Shown: piece by piece, positions 39,823 to 52,096 of the stretch
Numbering within the stretch: position 1 is the stretch's first letter
Layout: each line of letters opens with the position of its first letter
Assembly (NCBI RefSeq): GCF_039134705.1
Contig: NZ_CP146256.1
Span: 2,914,001-2,978,000 of the forward strand
Direction of reading: 5' to 3'
DNA: 64,000 nucleotides
DNA from: Kineothrix sp. IPX-CK
Lineage (GTDB): Bacteria; Bacillota; Clostridia; Lachnospirales; Lachnospiraceae
Notes under the pieces: generated by a model
Database searches by the model: none
The model's input: only the letters and a program-made list of their open reading frames with translations
Told to the model about the DNA's origin: nothing
Made by a program: the position numbers and the translations under genes

Positions 39823-39861
39823 CTACAACTCATAAGGGGTCACCTGATACACATAGTAAGA
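39823..39861 (-). repeat. left attachment site: diverged copy of the metA 3' end
   Basis: Read on the minus strand this segment encodes [11 protein letters not shown] and a TAG stop, exactly the C-terminus of MetA encoded at 52058-52096. The first 12 bases (39823-39834) equal 52058-52069; the remaining coding part differs at about five mostly silent positions. A 12-bp identical core with a diverged element-side arm is what site-specific integration into a gene end should leave. Confidence 0.8.
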
Positions 39862-40003: not shown

Positions 40004-41353
40004 TCAGGTACCTACGGAAGCCAGATAGACGATGTTCTTCTTTCTTTTACTTGTATGCTTGGTAGTATCTTCGATTTCGTTTGCATTTACGTCTTTTTCT
40101 ATATCTTTCGCTGACTTTTGAAACGTATGATTAAACTTATCAAATCGTTCCTGAATTGTGGAATCTGAAACATCCAGTGTATTGTCCAGAACCTTTTCTA
40201 ACTTAGTCATCTCTTCCTGCGAATGTTCCTTTAATACATGAGTGTATAAGTCCATGGTCATCTGTAACGTGGCATGCCCCAGATACTGTTGCACTGTTTT
40301 TGACTTGATCCCTGCTTCAAAACATCTGGTCGCAAAAGTATGTCTGAAACAATGGGGACTAAAATATTCAATTTTCTCCAGTTCATCCCTGCATAGGTTC
40401 ACGTTTTCCAAAACTGCCTTAATGGCATCGGAATAGGTCTGTGTATTAATTGGTGTTCCAAATTTGGTGGTGAATAAGAGTTCTTCAAATCCTGCAATTG
40501 GCTTGGCAGTCATTCTTCCCATGACAACGTTTCGTTGCATGAGCTGTTTCTTAAATGCCAATGCACATTGCTGATTCATCGGAATTTCTCTTTTGCTTGA
40601 TTTGGTTTTTGGATCATCAAAATGAAATGTCTTTTTCTCGTCTCCTTCAAAGGTCTGATAAACAAGGGTCTTATTTACGCGGATAAGAGAATCTTTAAAA
40701 TCAATATCCTTCAGGGTTAAGGCACATACCTCGCCAGGTCTTAGACCTGTAGATACGGCAACCACAAAAAGATTGTCATAAAAGGTGCCCTTGGAACATT
40801 CAAAAAAACTTGCCTGTTCTTCTGGTGTAAGTACTCTTGGTTCTTTCTTATCATGAGCGCCTAATTTGATTCCTTTTGCTGGATTCTTGTAAAGCATGTC
40901 ATTAATCATAGCTTTATCAAACATATCCTGAAGCAAAATACGAACCTTATTCCGACTCTCAAACTGTAATCCCTTTGCATCCATCTTTTTTAGGAGCTGC
41001 AAAATCTGTAATTGTGTAATGTCCAGCAGTTTCATTTTTCCAAGAACTGGTGAAATGTGCATCCGATAGATTTCCATATAACGTCGTTTGGTATTGGCAC
41101 AAATGGTATTTTCCTTGTAGTGCTCCATCCATGTTTTGAACCATTTGTCTAAGGTAATTGACGTTTTACACAGATTCATATGATTCGTATCTTCATAAAT
41201 TGCTGTGTTTAATAACGTCTTCAGTTCCTTAAGATCACGGCTCTTTACTTCCTGCCGCTGACCAAAACGATTGGTAAATCGTCCAACATATCTTCCATCT
41301 TTTCTCTGCATAATTCCTGTGCCCAGTTCTTTGCTACTTAAATCTTTTCCCAT
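40004..41353 (-). CDS. int: tyrosine site-specific recombinase (integrase)
   Basis: A 449-residue phage/ICE-type integrase: an N-terminal arm-binding domain (GIMQRKDGRYVGRFTNRFGQ), a core-binding SAM-like domain (about 65-165, SITLDKWFKTWMEHYKE), and a catalytic domain with the first Arg in STGLRPGEVCAL, H-x-x-R in SPHCFRHTFATR and the nucleophile Tyr in QMTMDLYTHV. The layout resembles Tn916-type and related Gram-positive integrases. It lies next to the left attachment site, the usual position, and should catalyse integration and excision at the metA 3' end. A basic extra tail of about 40 residues follows the catalytic domain. Confidence 0.95.
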   Translation of the reverse strand: MGKDLSSKELGTGIMQRKDGRYVGRFTNRFGQRQEVKSRDLKELKTLLNTAIYEDTNHMNLCKTSITLDKWFKTWMEHYKENTICANTKRRYMEIYRMHISPVLGKMKLLDITQLQILQLLKKMDAKGLQFESRNKVRILLQDMFDKAMINDMLYKNPAKGIKLGAHDKKEPRVLTPEEQASFFECSKGTFYDNLFVVAVSTGLRPGEVCALTLKDIDFKDSLIRVNKTLVYQTFEGDEKKTFHFDDPKTKSSKREIPMNQQCALAFKKQLMQRNVVMGRMTAKPIAGFEELLFTTKFGTPINTQTYSDAIKAVLENVNLCRDELEKIEYFSPHCFRHTFATRCFEAGIKSKTVQQYLGHATLQMTMDLYTHVLKEHSQEEMTKLEKVLDNTLDVSDSTIQERFDKFNHTFQKSAKDIEKDVNANEIEDTTKHTSKRKKNIVYLASVGT

Positions 41354-41824: not shown

Positions 41825-43438
41825 TTAATCTTTTGTTTTTATCCGGCAGTTCTCCGGGATTTTATCTGACCAGGGAAGTAGATCTTTCAGGAAATCCTGA
41901 TCGGTATCTTCTTGATGTTCCATCAATTCTGTGAGTAAAAACTCCAGATAGCGGAATGGATTCAGATTGTTTGCCTTGGCTGTTTCAGTAATGCTGTAGG
42001 CTATGGCACTAGCCTTTGCTCCGTCAATCGTATCGATTAAGCGCCAGGTATGTTTATGGACACAGAAGGTGCGAAGTGCTGACTCTGTTGCATTGTTATC
42101 CAGAGGTACATCCCCGTCATCCAGGAACACTTTAAGATTCTTTTCATGATTGATACAGTAGCTGATGCCTTCCAATGTTTTGCCTTTTGATAGGCGGTTA
42201 CTCATTTGAACATCTTTTGCCCATGCGAAGAAGGCCTCTACCAGTGGCTTTACGGTGAGCTGTCTCTCCTGCCTTCTTCGCTCAGGAGATAGCCCGGATA
42301 ATCCATTATCCAGATGATATATGGCTGCGATCTGCTTCAATGCCTGATATGCGACCGTATCCTGTGCGGATTCCCGTCTATTCTTGGGAATCGCTTTGAT
42401 TGCTTCGGCAAATCGCCGCCTGCCGTGAGCCCAGCATCCTGCAAATATGATATCCGGATTCTTTCGATCTAGTGAATCATATACAGCGTATGCATCGGTC
42501 ACTAAGGTTCCATGAAAGTTCTTTAAGAACTCTTGCGGGTGCTCCGTCTTTCGAGTCTTTTGATACTCGTAAAGAATGATAGGAGTATCCTTATAACCCT
42601 TTCCTGTGCGGTATACCCACATGTAACTCTTGCTATTCGCAGGACGTCCATCCTTTGTTACGAATACTGGTGTTTCATCTGCCTGAAGAATGCGGAATGT
42701 AAGCAGCTCCTTCTGCAGATAATCGAACATGATCCCCAGATAACGTTCCGCACATTGGATTACCCAGTTTGCCAGGACCTGCTTGGATATATGGATATCG
42801 TTTCGTAAATACTCTTTATTGATACGTTCCAACGGCATTCCGTTTACGTACTTTGCATTATAGATACTCGCAACAAGTGATGGTGTTGCAATACTGTTTC
42901 GAAGAAGGCTCTTTGGACGGTCTGCTTTTACAATCGTTTGATTGTCCCTGCCTGCATAGACTGCCACGTGATGCTCTTCTACGGTATAGACAGCTGGTTC
43001 CACCTTGACTCTTTTATATACTTCGTCAGGCAATTGTTTCCATCCGTTCACTCCAAAGATTTCTGTCAGTTCTTCCTCGGATAATACATGAGGGATTTCG
43101 ACAACTGGAAGGCCTGCTAAATCCTTATCTCGTTTTCCGACCTGCTTTTTCTTCTTTGCAGGAAGTACATCATCTTCAGCCGGTTCAACCACATAGAGGG
43201 TTTCCGTGAGTGCTTCTGCCTCATTAAATATGAAGTCAAGATTCAGCTGCCCATCCATTACCTCAAGCTTTTCCGAAGAGCGGCCATACCGCTGATTGTT
43301 TGCAACTGCAATCTGCTCGATGAGACGTTCCATGTTCTGGTTCAGCTGCTCTAATTGTTCCTGCATGGACAGGATGACAACCATCATGCTCTCTTTGCTT
43401 AAGCCATTCAGTTCATCAACCGTGTATTTTTTAGCCAT
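41825..43438 (-). CDS. tnpC: IS66 family transposase TnpC
   Basis: A 537-residue DDE transposase: an N-terminal leucine-rich coiled coil (about 20-55, MQEQLEQLNQNMERLIEQ), a linker, the conserved helix region LVASIYNAKYVNGMPLERI, and the catalytic domain with Asp in LQADETPVF, Asp in LVTDAYAVYD and Glu in NNATESALRTF. The canonical IS66 zinc-finger cysteines are not evident; this part reads EEELTEIFGVNGWKQLPDEV. The length is normal for the family. Confidence 0.95.
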   Translation of the reverse strand: MAKKYTVDELNGLSKESMMVVILSMQEQLEQLNQNMERLIEQIAVANNQRYGRSSEKLEVMDGQLNLDFIFNEAEALTETLYVVEPAEDDVLPAKKKKQVGKRDKDLAGLPVVEIPHVLSEEELTEIFGVNGWKQLPDEVYKRVKVEPAVYTVEEHHVAVYAGRDNQTIVKADRPKSLLRNSIATPSLVASIYNAKYVNGMPLERINKEYLRNDIHISKQVLANWVIQCAERYLGIMFDYLQKELLTFRILQADETPVFVTKDGRPANSKSYMWVYRTGKGYKDTPIILYEYQKTRKTEHPQEFLKNFHGTLVTDAYAVYDSLDRKNPDIIFAGCWAHGRRRFAEAIKAIPKNRRESAQDTVAYQALKQIAAIYHLDNGLSGLSPERRRQERQLTVKPLVEAFFAWAKDVQMSNRLSKGKTLEGISYCINHEKNLKVFLDDGDVPLDNNATESALRTFCVHKHTWRLIDTIDGAKASAIAYSITETAKANNLNPFRYLEFLLTELMEHQEDTDQDFLKDLLPWSDKIPENCRIKTKD

Positions 43439-43719
43439 TTCGCCGCTCCTTTAACTGTCATCTATTATACGATAAATGCAGGGAAAAAGCGAATCCGGGT
43501 AATTCGGGTCATCGGCATTTTGACGGTGTATAACTACTCTGAAACCTCTAAGAAATGGCTGGTTTTCTTGGTTTTTCAAAGTTTTATCCACTTGAATTAG
43601 TTTTCCGGGTTTTGCAGGGAGAACTAATTCACTTTACTAGCTTGTTCTGGTGGATAACTATCCGGATGCGGCGAATCCTGTCAGATTTAACATTTTCAAT
43701 TTCTACGAAATGCACAAAA
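43439..43719. other. non-coding spacer inside IS66
   Basis: About 280 bp between tnpB and tnpC on the minus strand. No gene was seen. Such a gap is longer than in many IS66 members and could hold a regulatory signal for tnpC. Confidence 0.5.
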
Positions 43720-44079
43720 TCAGAGTAGATCTGTACGATCAACTTCCTGGATCGGTTTCTTTGCAATGACTTCGATACCTTCCATTAACCGTTGGTACTG
43801 TTCCTGCGTAATCTCCAGTGCTTCTTCGGTAGTACGAGGCCAGTTGAAGCCTCCAATTTCAAGTCGCTTATATAGTAGCAGGAAACCATCACCTTCCCAA
43901 AGAAGTCCTTTCACACGGTCTGTCCGTTTGCCGCAAAAAAGAAACAAAATATTCTTCTGGAACGGATCAAGATTGAAATTATATTTTACAATGGATGCTA
44001 ACCCGTCAATTCCACGTCGTAAGTCCGTGTAGCCGGTGGCAAGATATATCTTCCGAAATCCAGATGAATCATTGAACAT
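43720..44079 (-). CDS. tnpB: IS66 accessory protein TnpB
   Basis: A 119-residue IS66 Orf2-like protein with family signatures RKIYLATGYTDLRRGIDGLA, LFLFCGKRTDRVKGLLWEGD and FLLLYKRLE. It is required with TnpA for IS66 transposition, role not fully resolved. It overlaps tnpA by 11 bp, suggesting coupling. Confidence 0.95.
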   Translation of the reverse strand: MFNDSSGFRKIYLATGYTDLRRGIDGLASIVKYNFNLDPFQKNILFLFCGKRTDRVKGLLWEGDGFLLLYKRLEIGGFNWPRTTEEALEITQEQYQRLMEGIEVIAKKPIQEVDRTDLL

Positions 44080-44431
44080 AAGATAGTGCTCCTATCAACC
44101 GGCGGAGAAATGCATCCGATGCAGAATCTGCAATTTCAATCATACATCCATTTACATGGATGGTAGCGGAAGAACTTCCGCATTCGTATTTTGGTTCCGC
44201 AGTCTTAATTACGTTAGGAACTTCAACAAAACCAGTTGAGAGATCCGTGGGAGCCATACTTGCCTGTATGGTATAGGCCTCTTCCCGAACCCTACGCTGC
44301 CAGTAGTAAAACTGTTTCTCGTCGACCTGATTTTGTTCGCACCACTGTTTTTTTGATAATCCGCTTACATTACATTTCTGGATGAGCTTGCTCCAACGGG
44401 CCAATCTCATCTTGTGAGTGATCTTGTCCAT
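44069..44431 (-). CDS. tnpA: IS66 accessory protein TnpA
   Basis: A 120-residue IS66 OrfA-like protein with an N-terminal HTH-like part (WSKLIQKCNVSGLSKKQWCE, QFYYWQRRVREEA) and a C-terminal beta segment (SATIHVNGCMIEI). It is probably the DNA-binding regulator of the element. Confidence 0.92.
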   Translation of the reverse strand: MDKITHKMRLARWSKLIQKCNVSGLSKKQWCEQNQVDEKQFYYWQRRVREEAYTIQASMAPTDLSTGFVEVPNVIKTAEPKYECGSSSATIHVNGCMIEIADSASDAFLRRLIGALSYVQ

Positions 44432-44536: not shown

Positions 44537-44560
44537 TAGCCCCAGAAAATTAGGGCTTAA
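44537..44560 (-). terminator. weak terminator after the cargo operon
   Basis: On the minus strand AAGCCC pairs with GGGCT followed by an AT-rich run. Before the IS66 insertion this hairpin would have stood between the last cargo gene and xis. Confidence 0.4.
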
Positions 44561-44578: not shown

Positions 44579-45811
44579 TTATATTTTTTGTACTCTTCCC
44601 AACCACCTTGTCATTTGTCCATTACTATCTTCACCAACATAAAACTTTCCATTATAAATAGCACAGACACAATTAGTTGTTAGTAATTTCAAGTTTCCAT
44701 TTTCCACTGTGGTTATTCTAGCCTCATTTAAATTTTTGCATATTTTGTTAACAGTAGTATTATTTTCTTCACAGTAATCATTAAATCCTTGATCAAATAC
44801 TGATATATCTTTGCCATTACAAAGTAGATGAACTATTCCATATTCAATATCAGTCACTTCATTTGGCTTCCAGATATCATCTCCTTTTGCTAACTTTGCA
44901 TTAAGAACATTATATATCCATCCATTAGCATTTCCTCTAGCTATTAAAAACGGATTAATGCCTTCAACTTTATCTTCTTCTCCAAAAATTTCATATGATA
45001 TCTCATCATACATATAATACAATCTTGTCCAAATTAATTCTATTAACAATGTTAATGGATTTCCATTGTAAGATCCATAGGAAATCCATGCATTAGAATC
45101 TGTTGCTAAAGCAAAAGGCATTCCATTTGTTTTTATTAATGAAAATTCACCAGATATAATTAGATTTGGAAAACTGACGATTCCTCCTCCTTTTTTACCT
45201 TTCATATTATCTATATGATTAACAAAAGATTTTCTTAGACTCTCTTCACTTTTAAATCCATCATATCCAAATGCTATTCGCAAAGGTAAATATGCTTCCA
45301 AAACCAAAGCATGGTATGTATACTGTAATTCTTCACTCAGCTCAATAATTTGTTCGGGATTAGGCAATGCATTTCCAACAATTTGTTTATATGCCATTTC
45401 CAACATATCTATCTTCATATCTCTAGTAGGTTCAGAAAGTGACTTAACACTTAATAGATTATTATATGCTGAAGCCAAATCATCTGAAAACAAGTCTTTC
45501 TTTACCTCTATAACTGCGATAACTTTATCAATACTATATACTTTTTTACTTGTTTCGGGTATTTTTTCTCCCTCACCAACAACAATCATACAATCGATTT
45601 GTCTACTGTAATCACCTTTTGAGTTTTTAATAAACCCAGAACATACCTCCAATTCCAAATTATCAAATATAGCTTTATTAATTAGCTCTTTTGTTAATCC
45701 TTCATACATGTCACCAATAGTCGGACCATGCTTAATACATAGATATTTTTCAATATCTTTTATTCCATTTTCTTTCAAGCCTGATAATAACTCTATAATA
45801 CTTTTTATCAT
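44579..45811 (-). CDS. DUF6602-like, PD-(D/E)XK nuclease-like protein
   Basis: A 410-residue protein; ATG 45811 (MIKSIIELLSG) follows AGAGGAG at 6 nt. The N-terminal 120 residues resemble DUF6602: HGPTIGDMYEGLTKELIN, then SRQIDCMIV and VIAVIEVKKDL. The spacing E37 - D73 - E102-x-K104 matches the PD-(D/E)XK nuclease core, suggesting DNA or RNA cleavage, though activity is unproven. The C-terminal 250 residues are unrecognised and include aromatic, mixed alpha/beta sequence. It is the last gene of the cargo operon, 102 nt after the UDG-like gene. In a defence reading it would be the effector. Confidence 0.7.
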   Translation of the reverse strand: MIKSIIELLSGLKENGIKDIEKYLCIKHGPTIGDMYEGLTKELINKAIFDNLELEVCSGFIKNSKGDYSRQIDCMIVVGEGEKIPETSKKVYSIDKVIAVIEVKKDLFSDDLASAYNNLLSVKSLSEPTRDMKIDMLEMAYKQIVGNALPNPEQIIELSEELQYTYHALVLEAYLPLRIAFGYDGFKSEESLRKSFVNHIDNMKGKKGGGIVSFPNLIISGEFSLIKTNGMPFALATDSNAWISYGSYNGNPLTLLIELIWTRLYYMYDEISYEIFGEEDKVEGINPFLIARGNANGWIYNVLNAKLAKGDDIWKPNEVTDIEYGIVHLLCNGKDISVFDQGFNDYCEENNTTVNKICKNLNEARITTVENGNLKLLTTNCVCAIYNGKFYVGEDSNGQMTRWLGRVQKI

Positions 45812-45913
45812 ATATACTCCTCTAAAAATTACTGTGCAAAACATATTCATTTCAATAAATACAACCATCTCCACATGTGGGGAGTTGGGAAACAAATCAT
45901 CCACAATAACCCG

Positions 45914-46474
45914 TTATAACGAAGTTTCCAATAGATTATTAACTATATTTTGAATACTTTGAATATATTGATCTACTTTTTTTCTTTTGTACACATAAAT
46001 ATATGACGGATGGTGTATCGGAACGTAATATACTCCATTATTTTCCTTATAAAAATAATCAAACTCTTTCCATTTATCAAATTTTATATCAAAGTGTTTT
46101 CCCACAGATGAATAAACTTTTTCTCCAAGAAGAAAAACAATTTTAGGTGATAACTGGTTTATTTCTTTTTTTAAGTTCCCAATACAACTGTCAATCTCCT
46201 TTTTATTGGGGTACCGTAGTTTTTCTTCTTCATTCAATGGCAAGCATTTAACTAAATTGGTCTTGTATGTAGACACATCTCCAATTTTCAATTCAATGTT
46301 ATTTATTAGCATTCCCGTATTAGTATTTACTGATAACGGTATCTCATCATCTGATTCTATTTTTTTTGCGGACAATCCAACCCATACAATTTGACACTCT
46401 TTTTTGCAATCCATTAAAGGTTTCTGATTATTGCATAATCCGCATTTTTGACATTTTTTTATTTGATCAATCAT
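45914..46474 (-). CDS. uracil-DNA glycosylase-like Fe-S protein
   Basis: A 186-residue member of the UDG-like superfamily, closest in layout to family 4. Cys 8/11/14, Cys77 (NLVKCLPL) and Cys97 (EIDSCIGNL) match the four Fe-S ligands of that family (one N-terminal Cys is extra), and H154-H155-P-S-Y matches motif 3. Motif 1, usually GEAPG, is here GLSAK (33-37), and motif 2's PF-x-G-x-AG is PLSVNTNTG. The catalytic surroundings are thus altered, so it may act on a different base or only bind DNA. It starts 3 nt after the radical SAM stop, so the two are co-translated. Confidence 0.75.
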   Translation of the reverse strand: MIDQIKKCQKCGLCNNQKPLMDCKKECQIVWVGLSAKKIESDDEIPLSVNTNTGMLINNIELKIGDVSTYKTNLVKCLPLNEEEKLRYPNKKEIDSCIGNLKKEINQLSPKIVFLLGEKVYSSVGKHFDIKFDKWKEFDYFYKENNGVYYVPIHHPSYIYVYKRKKVDQYIQSIQNIVNNLLETSL

Positions 46475-46477
46475 ATT

Positions 46478-47803
46478 TTACTCCACTAAATTTTGCGTTT
46501 TTATTATAAATTCATTTAATACATCATCATTAACTTCACTGTAATTTCCAGAACTAAAATTAAACTGATTTCTATCAAGTAATGTATTAGTAATTTCATC
46601 TTGTATACATGTGGGAATTTCTCCCTTTTTTGCAACTATTTCTTTATATAATAAAGTTCCATGGTAAGGACGAAATTTAAAAACACTTGTCCTAAATACT
46701 CCCTTAAAATTTCTAGATATATCCATAATCTTACATGCTAATTCGTATGTAGCTTCAAAATCTTCTATTGTTTCGTCTGGAAAACCATAGATAAAATATC
46801 CTTTTAAGTCAATCCCATTTCTTAATATCTCGGTTGCAACACTTATTATATCATTCAAAGTTCCAATTTTGTTAATTTTATTTCTTATTTTTTGAGAGCC
46901 TGATTCAATCCCCATAAATAATTCTTTACAATTACTTTGTTTTAGTAATTCTACTTTATCTAGTGAATTGACTAATGAAATAGCATGAACCATTCCCCTC
47001 CACTCTATACTTGGATAATGACCGAATATTCTACTTGCCATATCTATACTTTTACTATTCCTTAAAAATAGATCATCTAAAATCCTTATACTTTTAATAC
47101 CAGTATATAATACTAACAATTCATTTATCTCTTCAATAACACTTTGTTCTGTTCTAATTCGAATATCAACGTTATTATTTAGGCTTCTTGCTCCACCACA
47201 AAATGCACAGTCAAACGCGCAACCCCGAGATGTAATAATTGATGCTTCATTATCTCCATAGTGATTTGTTATTATCTCTTTCTTAAAGTACTTTCTATTT
47301 AAATGAATTGAGGAAATATCCTTAGGCAAATAATCCGAATTATTATCTACTCTATATACTTTTTTATTTTTTAATTCCTTTATTGGAGACTCTTTGCATT
47401 GTCCATTAAGGATATCAGGTAAAATAAGTTCTCCTTCACCAATTACTATACTTAAATTATTATTTATATTCCACAACAATATTTCTTCATATATACTTTT
47501 AACTGCCGGTCCTCCAATAAAATATTCGCAGTTAATCTCTATGTTCTCAAGTATGTTCTTAACTAAATGATAATTTTGGGTAAAAACATTTATACCGACA
47601 TAATCTGGAGCTATATGGACAATTGTATTAACAATATCATCTACACCCAATCTTTCTTTTACACAATCTATTAGTTCAACCTTAAATCCATTATATTCTA
47701 AATATGTGGCAATATATCCTAAGCCAAGAGGAGCTAAATATTCTTCATGTTCATCTGTTGTATTTTTAAAAATAGGCGAATTCAAAATCACTACACTCTT
47801 CAT
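46478..47803 (-). CDS. B12-binding-type radical SAM protein
   Basis: A 441-residue class B-like radical SAM enzyme. The N-terminal 150 residues have a Rossmann cobalamin-binding-like fold (LAPLGLGYIATYLEYNGFKV; YVGINVFTQN; YFIGGPAVKSIYEE), but the DxHxxG cobalamin motif is not evident. The core carries the 4Fe-4S signature C195-x3-C199-x2-C202 (SRGCAFDCAFCGG) and MGIESGSQKIRNKI, then LKGYFIYGFPDET. Such proteins are methylases, cyclases or other radical enzymes. The start overlaps the kinase-like gene stop by ATGA. Next to a nucleotide kinase and a UDG-like protein, a nucleotide or DNA substrate is suspected (inference). Confidence 0.82.
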   Translation of the reverse strand: MKSVVILNSPIFKNTTDEHEEYLAPLGLGYIATYLEYNGFKVELIDCVKERLGVDDIVNTIVHIAPDYVGINVFTQNYHLVKNILENIEINCEYFIGGPAVKSIYEEILLWNINNNLSIVIGEGELILPDILNGQCKESPIKELKNKKVYRVDNNSDYLPKDISSIHLNRKYFKKEIITNHYGDNEASIITSRGCAFDCAFCGGARSLNNNVDIRIRTEQSVIEEINELLVLYTGIKSIRILDDLFLRNSKSIDMASRIFGHYPSIEWRGMVHAISLVNSLDKVELLKQSNCKELFMGIESGSQKIRNKINKIGTLNDIISVATEILRNGIDLKGYFIYGFPDETIEDFEATYELACKIMDISRNFKGVFRTSVFKFRPYHGTLLYKEIVAKKGEIPTCIQDEITNTLLDRNQFNFSSGNYSEVNDDVLNEFIIKTQNLVE

Positions 47804-48417
47804 TGTTTCTCCTTCAGATTTATTATGTGGTTAACAATTGTTTCAATGTTCACATCTGGTCGGTCATTATTTACAACACTTAATACATTTACACCTATTT
47901 TTATTAATGTCTGAACTCCTAGTTTCATATAGTTAAGTTCTTTTAATGTCTGATTTCCTTCTTCAAATCTTGTTAAAATAGAGCGTTCAGATAACCTTTT
48001 TTGAATGATATCTTCATCTGCACATATTGTAATTTGTAAATCAGGCAATATCACATCATGATTTACACTTAATATAAATTCTTCACTAACACCATCCATT
48101 CTTTGGAGAATTAAGGAAGACAATAAATATCTATCTGAAACCACGATTTTTCCATTTTCTAAATTTGGAATGATTTCTATACTCAAATGCTCATACCTAT
48201 TTGCAGCTACTAAACAAGCTAATTCTAATCCTCCATGATTTTCAGCATACTCTCTAGTGTAATTACCTAATTGCGTTTCTGATGGTTCTTTTGTAAAGTA
48301 TACTTCATACCCTAATTCTTCTAATTTTGATTTTACACCTGCTAATAATGTTGATTTTCCAACTCCATTTGGTCCATCTATTGCAATAAATTTTCCCTTC
48401 AAATCATTTATTTTCAA
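47800..48417 (-). CDS. thymidylate kinase-like P-loop protein
   Basis: A 205-residue dTMP-kinase-like protein: P-loop GPNGVGKST (15-23), the acceptor-site VSDRYLLSSLILQ (DR motif), and a lid region around KRLSERSILTRFEEG. The length is typical of Tmk. It is presumably additional to the housekeeping Tmk and would phosphorylate a dTMP-like or modified nucleotide. It overlaps the radical SAM gene by 4 bp and lies 81 nt after the HerA-like gene. Confidence 0.85.
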   Translation of the reverse strand: MKINDLKGKFIAIDGPNGVGKSTLLAGVKSKLEELGYEVYFTKEPSETQLGNYTREYAENHGGLELACLVAANRYEHLSIEIIPNLENGKIVVSDRYLLSSLILQRMDGVSEEFILSVNHDVILPDLQITICADEDIIQKRLSERSILTRFEEGNQTLKELNYMKLGVQTLIKIGVNVLSVVNNDRPDVNIETIVNHIINLKEKQ

Positions 48418-48498
48418 AAACTTACCCCCTTCAAAAACCTCACTTTATCCCAATTGTTAACATGCATGTAATTAACTTATTATAACATTCCTAAGCAA

Positions 48499-50571
48499 TT
48501 AATGTTCTGAATCCATCTCTTTAATCTCAGGCACTTCAAATATCATTGGGACACTCGATTTGAAAGCCTTCCCTGCTGCTACTGCTTGTCGAAACTGAAG
48601 TTTATTTAGTGCACTGGAGATTTCTTGTCCAAAATAATTAGACAAAAAATCTATACTAGTTTTATCATATTCTTGAAATGAAATAATTGAATTGCATTGT
48701 GTAAGAATCGTCTTTGAAACATTTGCTGTTCTTTGTGCAATTACTAAAAGACCAATATTATATTTTCTTCCTTGTAAGGCAATTTGAGCAATCGAATTAA
48801 TCAGAGGTTGTGATACTTTATCCGAAATTCCAGCAAAGTTTGATTCTGGAATTATTGTATGCGCTTCTTCAAGTACCAAACAAATACACTTGCCATAATT
48901 TTCTTGCTCTTTCGCTATCTTGAATAAAGCTTTAAAAAACGTTTGTGTATACTTCATAACCCCTGAAGTATTTTGTACCTCGGGAAGTTCAAAAATACTT
49001 AACTTCTCATCATCTGAAACAATAAATTCTTTGACAGAAGAAATTACCTTATCATATACCTCAATTTTTTTCTTTCTTGAATTTGCAGTATCTTTATTAT
49101 AATTATTAGCCATCTCATTTTCAATAAAGTCGATATCGTTAAATAATTTTCTTGATGTTTCATCATCAATTATAGATTTCGGTTTTAAATCAGCAAATTT
49201 TTCTTTATATTCTCCTGTAAAATCAACACATATAACTTTTACGTTCTCATCCTTAATATACTCTCTAATTATATTTCTTGAAAATATTGATTTACCTGTA
49301 CCAGTAACACCGATAATAGCAGTATGATGCGTAATAGCGACCTTCTTATCAAGAATTACTGGATAATTTGTTCCTGGTAAATTTCCTAATATAATTTCAT
49401 TTGAAGTCGTTGTTGTTTCATCAATGTCTGATGCAAGATAAACAGGGCTATTCATATTTGGTACCCAACCATATTTTTCAAATTGAAATTTTTCTTTATT
49501 CCAAGTTCCTAATTGTATAGCTTCTCCAATAATATATCCTGTTTCATTTTTATTTGCCAAAGACTCAGTGTGTGTTATTCCATCTACAATCTGATATAAC
49601 ACTTTATTTTCATTTACATTTACTTCTAACATACTTCCTTCGGCAACACATACTTTTGATGCATATAAAAATTTTATTTTCCCGATTTTACTTCCATCTG
49701 TAATTAAGCCAATAAACTTATTTACAATACAATCATCAGAAATACTATCCAATAAATAAACAATGTCTTCAATTGGTTTTTCTATTTGTGGAATGTTACA
49801 GCATAGTGAGCTAAAATCTTGATTTGAAATAACTTTTATCCACTGTTCTTGGTCCAATAACATTGATTCAAATATCAGTCCCCTCTTATATTCACCATCT
49901 GAAGAGCACTTAAACTCAACAAAACTAAAAAGTTCATTTTTCTTATATGTACAATCTAATTTAACTAAAAAAATATTTGTTGATTGAATACCCATTATCG
50001 TCCCAATCCCTGTAAAATGAGTACTTTCTTTTCGAGAAAATAACATCTCTATTACTTTAGCTAATTCTGGTAAGTTAAGTAACATGAATAATGCCCAGAA
50101 AAGTAATAACGAATTTAACTTTGTTGAAGAAGATGCATATTGAGTTAGTGCTCCCCATATGAAAAAAGCCGAAAAAAGTACATCTGGTTTCCCTAGAATA
50201 CGATTTATACGTGAAAAAAACTGCACAGCTTTATTTTCATCTTTTAACGAATTCTTTCTAATAATCATCAATGAATAACTTGATACGCACAAATATACAA
50301 TTAAAACTAAAAAAAAGAAAAATACAGCATCTCTATTTTCAATAGGTATAACTAATAAAGATAAACCTGCTGTTATAGCATTTACAAATATATTTGAATC
50401 TTTAGAAAAGAATGGTTGGTCAACCAAAGATAACAATATCAATAGCAAAAAACCTGAAGTAAACCAAAAACTCTTCAATAAATTTTCAAAATTTCTTTCT
50501 AATACGTAACCTACACCAATTAATACTATACACGAAAGTGTTAATAAAATAATTCGATATTTTCTACTCAT
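48499..50571 (-). CDS. membrane-anchored HerA/FtsK-like ATPase
   Basis: A 690-residue protein with four to six N-terminal hydrophobic helices (about 8-24, 38-55, 62-80, 82-105, 132-170), a central region with an N-terminal beta-barrel-like part (about 185-380) and a HerA/DUF87 ATPase domain. Walker A is GVTGTGKS (421-428), Walker B is LVLEEAH (565-571), with the sensor AQR (612-614) and a GR (601-602) as possible arginine finger. HerA-type ATPases are DNA translocases that form hexamers with nucleases and occur in defence systems such as HerA-Sir2; the membrane anchoring is unusual. It is the first gene of the cargo operon. Confidence 0.85.
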   Translation of the reverse strand: MSRKYRIILLTLSCIVLIGVGYVLERNFENLLKSFWFTSGFLLLILLSLVDQPFFSKDSNIFVNAITAGLSLLVIPIENRDAVFFFFLVLIVYLCVSSYSLMIIRKNSLKDENKAVQFFSRINRILGKPDVLFSAFFIWGALTQYASSSTKLNSLLLFWALFMLLNLPELAKVIEMLFSRKESTHFTGIGTIMGIQSTNIFLVKLDCTYKKNELFSFVEFKCSSDGEYKRGLIFESMLLDQEQWIKVISNQDFSSLCCNIPQIEKPIEDIVYLLDSISDDCIVNKFIGLITDGSKIGKIKFLYASKVCVAEGSMLEVNVNENKVLYQIVDGITHTESLANKNETGYIIGEAIQLGTWNKEKFQFEKYGWVPNMNSPVYLASDIDETTTTSNEIILGNLPGTNYPVILDKKVAITHHTAIIGVTGTGKSIFSRNIIREYIKDENVKVICVDFTGEYKEKFADLKPKSIIDDETSRKLFNDIDFIENEMANNYNKDTANSRKKKIEVYDKVISSVKEFIVSDDEKLSIFELPEVQNTSGVMKYTQTFFKALFKIAKEQENYGKCICLVLEEAHTIIPESNFAGISDKVSQPLINSIAQIALQGRKYNIGLLVIAQRTANVSKTILTQCNSIISFQEYDKTSIDFLSNYFGQEISSALNKLQFRQAVAAGKAFKSSVPMIFEVPEIKEMDSEH

Positions 50572-50619: not shown

Positions 50620-50648
50620 ATTATACAACTACGTTTTACAGTTTACAA
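50620..50648 (-). promoter_or_regulatory. promoter of the cargo operon
   Basis: On the minus strand TTGTAA (50643-50648) and TATAAT (50620-50625) have a 17-bp spacer, 49 nt before the HerA-like start codon, which has a GGGGG site. The iteron array ends 30 bp upstream. Confidence 0.6.
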
Positions 50649-50677: not shown

Positions 50678-50888
50678 TGATAGCATAAAATGCAATCAAA
50701 ATCCCCCGTGATAGTATTTTGTGCACTCACTTTCCAAAAGTAATAGTAAAAAGTGCACTCACTTTAACCACCTTATCCACACCAGTATAATTACTTCAAA
50801 AAAGTGATAGCATTTTATGCACTCATAATTTCCCTATGATAGCATTTTGTGCACTCACCTTCCAAATTGATAGCAAAAAGTGCTATCA
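50678..50888. repeat. iteron array of six 21-bp repeats with a DnaA box
   Basis: Copies at 50678, 50709, 50741, 50805, 50837 and 50868 follow TGATAGCA-N5-TGCACTCA; the last one is a perfect palindrome (TGATAGCA-N5-TGCTATCA). Start-to-start spacing is 31, 32, 64, 32, 31 bp, so all lie on one helical face. Where the missing seventh copy would be (50773) there is a perfect DnaA box, TTATCCACA (50773-50781). The array therefore looks like an iteron-type replication origin, or alternatively phased operators upstream of the cargo promoter. Confidence 0.85.
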
Positions 50889-52057: not shown

Positions 52058-52096
52058 CTACAACTCATACGGCGTAACCTGATATACATAATAATT
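52058..52096 (-). repeat. right attachment site in the metA 3' end
   Basis: The last 11 codons and stop of metA; 52058-52069 is identical to 39823-39834. The gene end is restored at this junction. Confidence 0.75.

Follow-up and report, generated by a model that had tools for sequence, protein, structure and literature searches.

Whether the five genes carried by an integrated element of Kineothrix sp. IPX-CK act as one system, or whether a smaller unit among them is the functional entity, is the question raised by this locus. The window analysed here is the whole stretch of 64,000 nucleotides (contig NZ_CP146256.1, positions 2,914,001 to 2,978,000 of the forward strand), to which all positions below refer unless another contig is named. 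The 12.2-kb element sits in the 3' end of metA and carries a five-gene cluster on the minus strand. The first-pass annotation, made from the sequence alone, had read all five genes as a single system. That reading was not upheld, because relatives of the HerA-like and DUF6602 proteins were found in none of the 29 other loci compared. What is conserved is a core of three genes, encoding a dTMP-kinase-like protein, a B12-type radical SAM enzyme and a UDG-superfamily glycosylase. The best explanation, to which a probability of about one in three can be given, is that this three-gene module makes and excises an altered base as a defence against phages, by a chemistry that we infer. The five genes are listed below in the direction of transcription:

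48499..50571, minus strand: HerA-like ATPase, 690 aa, membrane-anchored (DUF87/HerA Pfam match; N-terminal membrane segments assigned by eye)
47800..48417, minus strand: dTMP-kinase-like (TMK-like) protein, 205 aa, TTG start; first core gene (PF02223)
46478..47803, minus strand: B12-type radical SAM enzyme, as predicted by domain, 441 aa; second core gene (PF04055 and PF02310)
45914..46474, minus strand: UDG-like, putatively family-4-like protein, 186 aa; third core gene (four Fe-S-type cysteines, motif I GLSAK)
44579..45814, minus strand: DUF6602 protein, NucC-like predicted PD-(D/E)XK nuclease, 411 aa (PF20247)

From 5' to 3' these genes are spaced by an 81-bp gap, a 4-bp overlap, a 3-bp gap and 99 bp (9 bp with a GTG start). 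The DUF6602 gene, whose stop lies at 44579, more likely begins at ATG 45814, which AGAGGAG precedes, than at GTG 45904. Both the coordinates and the spacing agree with the five same-strand genes with short gaps or overlaps described at first, and each of the broad protein families named there was borne out by profile matches. The Pfam scores are 63.6 bits for DUF87/HerA, 112 for Thymidylate_kin, 69.7 for Radical_SAM, 50.4 for B12-binding, 56.0 for UDG and 65.2 for DUF6602, and all Pfam matches of the five proteins exceed each family's own cut-off.

Distribution of the three-gene module

The comparison covers 30 loci, namely the window, 23 of 32 genome-contig loci, one of four viral loci and five genomes from whole-genome searches. 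The nine remaining genome-contig loci (L030-L038) were left out as weak or partial matches and three viral loci (L040-L042) were also excluded, while the near-duplicates L007/L008, L016/L018 and L013/L056 are each counted. A radical SAM gene or its remnant adjoins the UDG-like gene in all 30 loci. The two are fused in L026, the UDG gene is decayed in L019, the radical SAM gene is broken in L024, L028 and L029, and contig ends truncate L021 and L060. The kinase gene lies directly upstream of this pair in 20 of the 30 loci and was not found in nine (L016, L018, L020, L022 and L025-L029); for L060 no call is given. Kinase and radical SAM enzyme are joined in one fusion protein, P0028. Pairwise identities of the three core proteins co-vary (r 0.91-0.95 over 15 loci, with 0 of 2000 label shuffles as high), which points to joint inheritance and is not evidence of function. 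The unit is rare, occurring in 5 of 295 genomes of the order and 2 of 398 of the phylum, with its own genome in both counts. Among the best 120 of 3930 matches to the radical SAM protein, 117 show about 58-68% identity and several are from Lachnospiraceae. The genome search for the gene set and its synteny, which the first-pass annotation had proposed as a check, thus returned kinase, radical SAM and glycosylase genes as a conserved mobile unit. The architecture, conservation, fusions and mobility of the module are directly observed, and it is very probably real as a functional unit.

Carriers of the module include phages, plasmids, the integrated element and a Tn7-like neighbourhood, and two copies, L039 and that of phage SF3, lie on phage genomes. 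Phages are described as using nucleotide-level modification in passages of one report (PMC10853773). Such modification and the mobility of the module fit a role in self-marking or anti-restriction, in which the element would modify a nucleotide of its own DNA and the glycosylase would police unmodified or wrongly modified bases. Clustering of the neighbouring open reading frames (ORFs), however, found no gene besides the core in more than seven loci, the largest cluster being an insertion-site gene. No polymerase partner therefore stands out, and self-marking is considered improbable.

Flanking genes differ by locus, with HerA and DUF6602 in the window and GajB, Kiwa or DUF6119 elsewhere. Some loci, including some Firmicutes copies, have defence genes directly beside the module, in agreement with the defence-cargo context suggested at first. 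The neighbour set submitted to PADLOC comprised 106 of 204 ORFs, hand-picked from 27 loci (all except the window, L008 and L018), with 25 of the 112 matched models listed. Judged from this context, a role of the module in defence is rather probable. As had been supposed, no named system with this gene set was matched in PADLOC, NCBIfam or the open-access literature. No description of the gene combination was found in that literature, subscription papers being outside the coverage, and nothing relevant to 8xMP was found in open-access papers.

Individual neighbourhoods offer further observations. In L060 (2-8101), the module stands beside a Tn7-like set of TnsD, TniQ, a TniB-like ATPase and a Mu-type transposase C-domain. 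That of L058 (2130-15727) lies amid secretion-ATPase and pilus-type genes (T2SSE 87 bits, the others named by eye), 121 and 129 bp from its neighbours. The genes directly upstream of the module in L013 (8195-9280, 361 aa) and L039 (811-1842, 343 aa) are candidate partners, and no useful Pfam match was obtained for either protein.

Glycosylase, radical SAM enzyme and kinase

The UDG-like protein combines a UDG fold with four Fe-S cysteines, as in family-4 UDG. Its motif I reads GLSAK in all 20 aligned rows (L008, L018, L019, L021, L026 and the whole-genome loci being left out), versus GExPG in family 4, and aligns to GEAPG of 4zbx and GEGPG of 1l9g. Scores fall under the cut-offs of the curated family-4 models (NF040953, 53.2 of 250 bits; TIGR00758, 47.2 of 125.3 bits) and of UdgX (TIGR03914, 29.9 of 189.95 bits). 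The protein is probably family-4-like with an altered motif I, and base excision is its predicted activity. A UDG-like relative of 39% identity, possibly one that stands alone or serves counter-defence, lies on the faecal phage contig MT836204 (11.9 kb; L053, 675-1190), in which searches with the five window proteins found nothing else.

A second, Streptomyces-type form of the module was found in phage and plasmid records, of which one of three and seven of 71 (L005, L006 and L061-L065), respectively, were opened. Streptomyces phage SF3 gives the best phage match, at 31% identity, and the top twelve plasmid matches all come from Streptomyces or Kitasatospora. In all seven loci of this type (SF3 and six plasmids) the gene order is glycosylase-like, radical SAM, kinase and then NUDIX (six loci) or MazG-like (one); a polysaccharide-cluster-like radical SAM locus of Solidesulfovibrio is not counted among them. 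The glycosylase-like protein measures 266-279 aa in the six annotated copies. Of three copies searched against Pfam, two had no match and the third had a weak one to an unrelated family (0.054). When one copy was searched against the PDB by phmmer, 3-methyladenine DNA glycosylases were returned (2yg8, E 9e-4; 4ejy, 2e-3; 2jhj, 3e-3), with an unrelated antibody ranking below (E 0.024). Six aligned copies have IGPWTA and YPH-x-DLAVRTWA in common, in the part of the protein that holds the catalytic aspartate in AlkA-type enzymes. This first protein is a putative AlkA-like glycosylase, which would hold the slot of the UDG with an unrelated fold. That a related kinase-radical SAM pair is associated with two glycosylase folds speaks for base excision, or base recognition at the least, as an integral function of the module.

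DNA glycosylases are proven as phage defence for Brig1 and Brig3, according to passages of two reports, and in Brig1 and Brig3-BapA too a UDG-superfamily glycosylase lies in defence islands, that of Brig3 in an operon with a base-handling partner enzyme (PMC11078745, PMC13160076). In Brig, however, the phage makes the target base and the partner is a sugar hydrolase. The UDG of the module is accompanied instead by a B12-type radical SAM enzyme and a dTMP-type kinase, and its slot can be filled by a glycosylase-like protein that has a different fold. A Brig-like scheme of unmasking and excision can still be drawn, in which the glycosylase would cut a modified phage base after the radical SAM enzyme and the kinase had processed the phage's modified nucleotides or bases to expose them. 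It is unlikely: a kinase that lifts a monophosphate suits synthesis over unmasking, kinase and radical SAM enzyme stay paired though the glycosylase fold differs, and two of the loci are on phage genomes.

The radical SAM protein has its CxxxCxxC motif at residues 195-202, with cysteines invariant in 15 aligned rows, and joins PF04055 to an N-terminal B12-binding-type domain (PF02310), both over the cut-off. Its AlphaFold2 (AF2) model, with a predicted local distance difference test (pLDDT) score of 86.6, has AprD4, MgmA and OxsB as the closest folds, of which the top match, AprD4, is presumably B12-independent. The enzyme is classed as B12-type by domain, and its use of cobalamin is predicted. 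An analogy to prokaryotic viperins, which occur with nucleotide kinases, had been drawn at first. It stood as a functional likeness, the pairing of radical SAM enzyme and nucleotide kinase being common to both, and the PADLOC model VakA, which we take to be the viperin-associated kinase, matches the element kinase weakly (25.5 bits). As a family assignment it did not stand. Viperins are not known to carry a B12 domain, whereas the element enzyme has a B12-binding-type domain (50.4 bits), a dTMP-type kinase partner and a DNA glycosylase. PADLOC gave no viperin match for the radical SAM protein, its sole match at E 0.1 being PDC-M51A, and no viperin was among the 25 of 30 NCBIfam matches listed.

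The PADLOC candidate PDC-M51 (radical SAM and kinase-type models) has two broad enzyme families in common with the module, and its PDC-M51A model (PDLC04689) scores 50.7 bits on the element protein, a match at superfamily level. With the same model (E 1e-30), scores of 106-171 bits are reached by proteins from 144 of 398 Firmicutes genomes, with frames of roughly 525-680 aa. Membership in PDC-M51 was rejected because 50.7 bits lies below that range, and since the model matches so many genomes, calls on PDC-M51A alone look unsafe. OxsB and AlsB, of oxetanocin and albucidin, provide another comparison. OxsB is longer, has four domains and the phosphohydrolase OxsA as partner, and is 16% identical to the element protein, which has a kinase and a glycosylase beside it. 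As in the makers of these compounds, the radical SAM enzyme could yield a nucleoside toxin for rivals, with the glycosylase and the NUDIX or MazG protein providing self-resistance. A natural product of this kind has a slim chance, given that no shared exporter or phosphatase stood out from the clustered neighbours (part of the ORFs being annotated) and that some Firmicutes copies adjoin defence genes.

The kinase scores 111 bits against TIGR00041 (cut-off 83.25), and alignment to solved TMKs places its P-loop and DRY motif. Eleven module and six Streptomyces kinases stand apart from four canonical TMKs of the order (branch support 0.969), and the element protein scores a mean of 137 bits to the Streptomyces module kinases versus 73 to the four canonical ones. 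By these sequence comparisons it is a specialised lineage, apart from the housekeeping TMKs of the order. A TMPK carried on a genomic island is described for Pseudomonas putida (PMC10653934). In its own genome, the element kinase is the sole TIGR00041 or PF02223 match. Among 15 other genomes of the genus, nine have a TIGR00041 match over the cut-off, four have none and the near-complete G696 and G699 have fragments only, that of G699 (20.9 bits) seeming by eye to lie inside an ABC-transporter-like ORF. In G696 and G699, where no module was detected, no match reaches the cut-off either. The kinase can therefore not be taken as a replacement TMK, and the proposal that it is the host's essential TMK was rejected. 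These two genomes weigh likewise against a clean-up role, in which the module would clear damaged thymidylate-type nucleotides and take no part in defence, as does the rare and patchy occurrence of the unit. Though glycosylases and NUDIX or MazG proteins are typical sanitation enzymes, and the kinase has no second in its genome, such repair or salvage is very improbable.

Make-and-excise as a possible mode of defence

Taken together, the kinase, the NUDIX or MazG partner and the glycosylase suggest that an altered deoxynucleotide is produced, kept in check and taken out of DNA. The nucleotide-altering step tied to a DNA-acting enzyme, which the first-pass annotation had suggested, finds its counterpart in the conserved unit of kinase, radical SAM enzyme and glycosylase. 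In the make-and-excise reading, the radical SAM enzyme would act on a deoxynucleotide and alter it, a monophosphate of the thymidylate type being the likeliest substrate. The specialised kinase would lift the altered product to the diphosphate, and host enzymes would then convert it to the triphosphate. Once taken up by fast-replicating phage DNA, the altered base would be removed by the partner glycosylase, and at the resulting abasic sites the DNA would stall or break. In Streptomyces, damage to the cell itself may be kept low by the NUDIX or MazG protein, which would trim the triphosphate of the altered nucleotide. The HerA and DUF6602 proteins of the window, like Gabija or Kiwa at other loci, would act as separate components of defence that share a transcript with the module. 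We infer the substrate, the product, its incorporation and its excision, and read defence from context. It is doubtful, although conceivable, that the cell makes its own poison base through the radical SAM enzyme and a dedicated kinase and that a cognate glycosylase, of either of two unrelated folds, shreds the phage genome.

Nucleotide-analogue defence, as by viperins, and base-excision defence, as by Brig, have so far been known separately. The module would combine both principles in one unit and suggest that a new natural deoxynucleotide exists, and the putative AlkA-like protein in the slot of the UDG makes base excision testable as its core function. The claim of novelty is based on how the genes are combined and on the membership tests that failed, and it would be weaker if the module proved simply Brig-like.

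HerA, DUF6602 and the element

The HerA-like ATPase matches the PADLOC HerA models (best 106.5 bits), and GVTGTGKS, EEAH and QRTANVSKT are invariant in the query and 13 relatives (55-85%). As in the known SIR2-HerA and DUF4297-HerA defence systems, a HerA-type translocase stands beside a possible effector nuclease. Unlike them, the element protein has N-terminal membrane segments (by eye), and its scores are far under the cut-offs of the curated NCBIfam antiphage HerA models (NF042943, 72.7 of 800 bits; NF042944, 67.7 of 850 bits). The DUF6602 protein matches PF20247 at 65.2 bits (cut-off 27) and the PADLOC models PD_DExK and NucC at 51.3 and 24.3 bits. Across 15 rows its residues D74, K105 and K106 are invariant and E103 is almost invariant, in line with a NucC-like predicted PD-(D/E)XK nuclease.

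A tblastn search (E 1e-8) of the remaining 29 loci, over stretches of 6-21 kb, returned no relative of either protein. HerA at E 1e-80 among 398 genomes of the phylum, and DUF6602 at E 1e-10 among 295 genomes of the order, were found in the own genome only, and no HerA was confirmed in viral contigs. Among the matches listed (the best 120 of 984 for HerA and 120 of 732 for DUF6602), HerA relatives of 55-60% come from several phyla by source names. HerA and radical SAM relatives of 85-86% among the matches listed are both from a source with a longest contig of 26,266, a shared figure that suggests one further HerA-plus-module copy. HerA and DUF6602 relatives among them are both from a source with a longest contig of 11,958, which probably holds a HerA-DUF6602 pair, with no sign of the module. 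DUF6602 also occurs without HerA on plasmids and viral contigs. On an E. coli plasmid its gene comes after those of an AAA ATPase and of an ATP-dependent helicase; in Sagittula it lies near SIR2, and in Agrobacterium it precedes another ATP-binding protein. In all eight viral DUF6602 loci (L075-L082), no neighbour matched the HerA, module, GajB, KwaB or DUF6119 queries, and DUF6602 may be a stand-alone defence gene.

The five genes could nevertheless form a dedicated system, in which the product of the module would be a signal or mark sensed by HerA and the DUF6602 nuclease. Their GC content is 28-30%, against 38% in the integrase, 44% in IS66 and 42-45% in metA, ligA and window bases 1-38000, which implies joint arrival or similar sources. 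The gaps are short, and the terminator scan of the region found no terminator-like site between the genes, though a hairpin of this kind lies on the minus strand within the radical SAM gene. A second contig probably bears the HerA and radical SAM relatives of 85-86%, and NucC, which the DUF6602 protein resembles, is activated by a cyclic nucleotide. Yet the absence of HerA and DUF6602 beside the unit in all 29 other loci led to the rejection of the five genes as one conserved system. DUF6602 without HerA on plasmids and viral contigs tells against it as well, and a dedicated system of five is quite unlikely. HerA and DUF6602 are variable partners outside the conserved core. In one simple scenario, a HerA/DUF6602 defence operon would have acquired the module, either within it or as a neighbour.

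The remaining features of the element are as follows:

39823..39859, no strand: left attachment repeat, a copy of the metA 3' end (repeat family D3, 32/37 identical)
40004..41353, minus strand: tyrosine-type integrase of the element (ORF named by eye)
41825..44431, minus strand: IS66-family insertion downstream of the cluster, three ORFs named by eye, 43.8% GC
44538..44557, minus strand: terminator-like hairpin directly after the last gene (3 in the region versus 1.7 expected)
50620..50648, minus strand: promoter-like site, TTGTAA-17-TATAAT, upstream of HerA (promoter scan)
52058..52094, no strand: right attachment repeat, the metA 3' end (repeat comparison)

Integration into metA, also claimed at first, is supported by the two repeats: the 37-bp metA 3' end recurs 12,235 bp away, and the metA C-terminus is still readable in one frame of the left copy. 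The integrase ORF and the IS66 set lie between the left repeat and the five-gene cluster. The promoter scan as a whole was at chance, with 39 sites versus 43.2 expected. Just upstream of the HerA gene, at 50678-50861, four direct 26-nt repeats (GTGATAGTATTTTGTGCACTCAC-like, with 32- or 64-nt spacing) and an inverted copy are found, possibly operator or recombinase arm sites.

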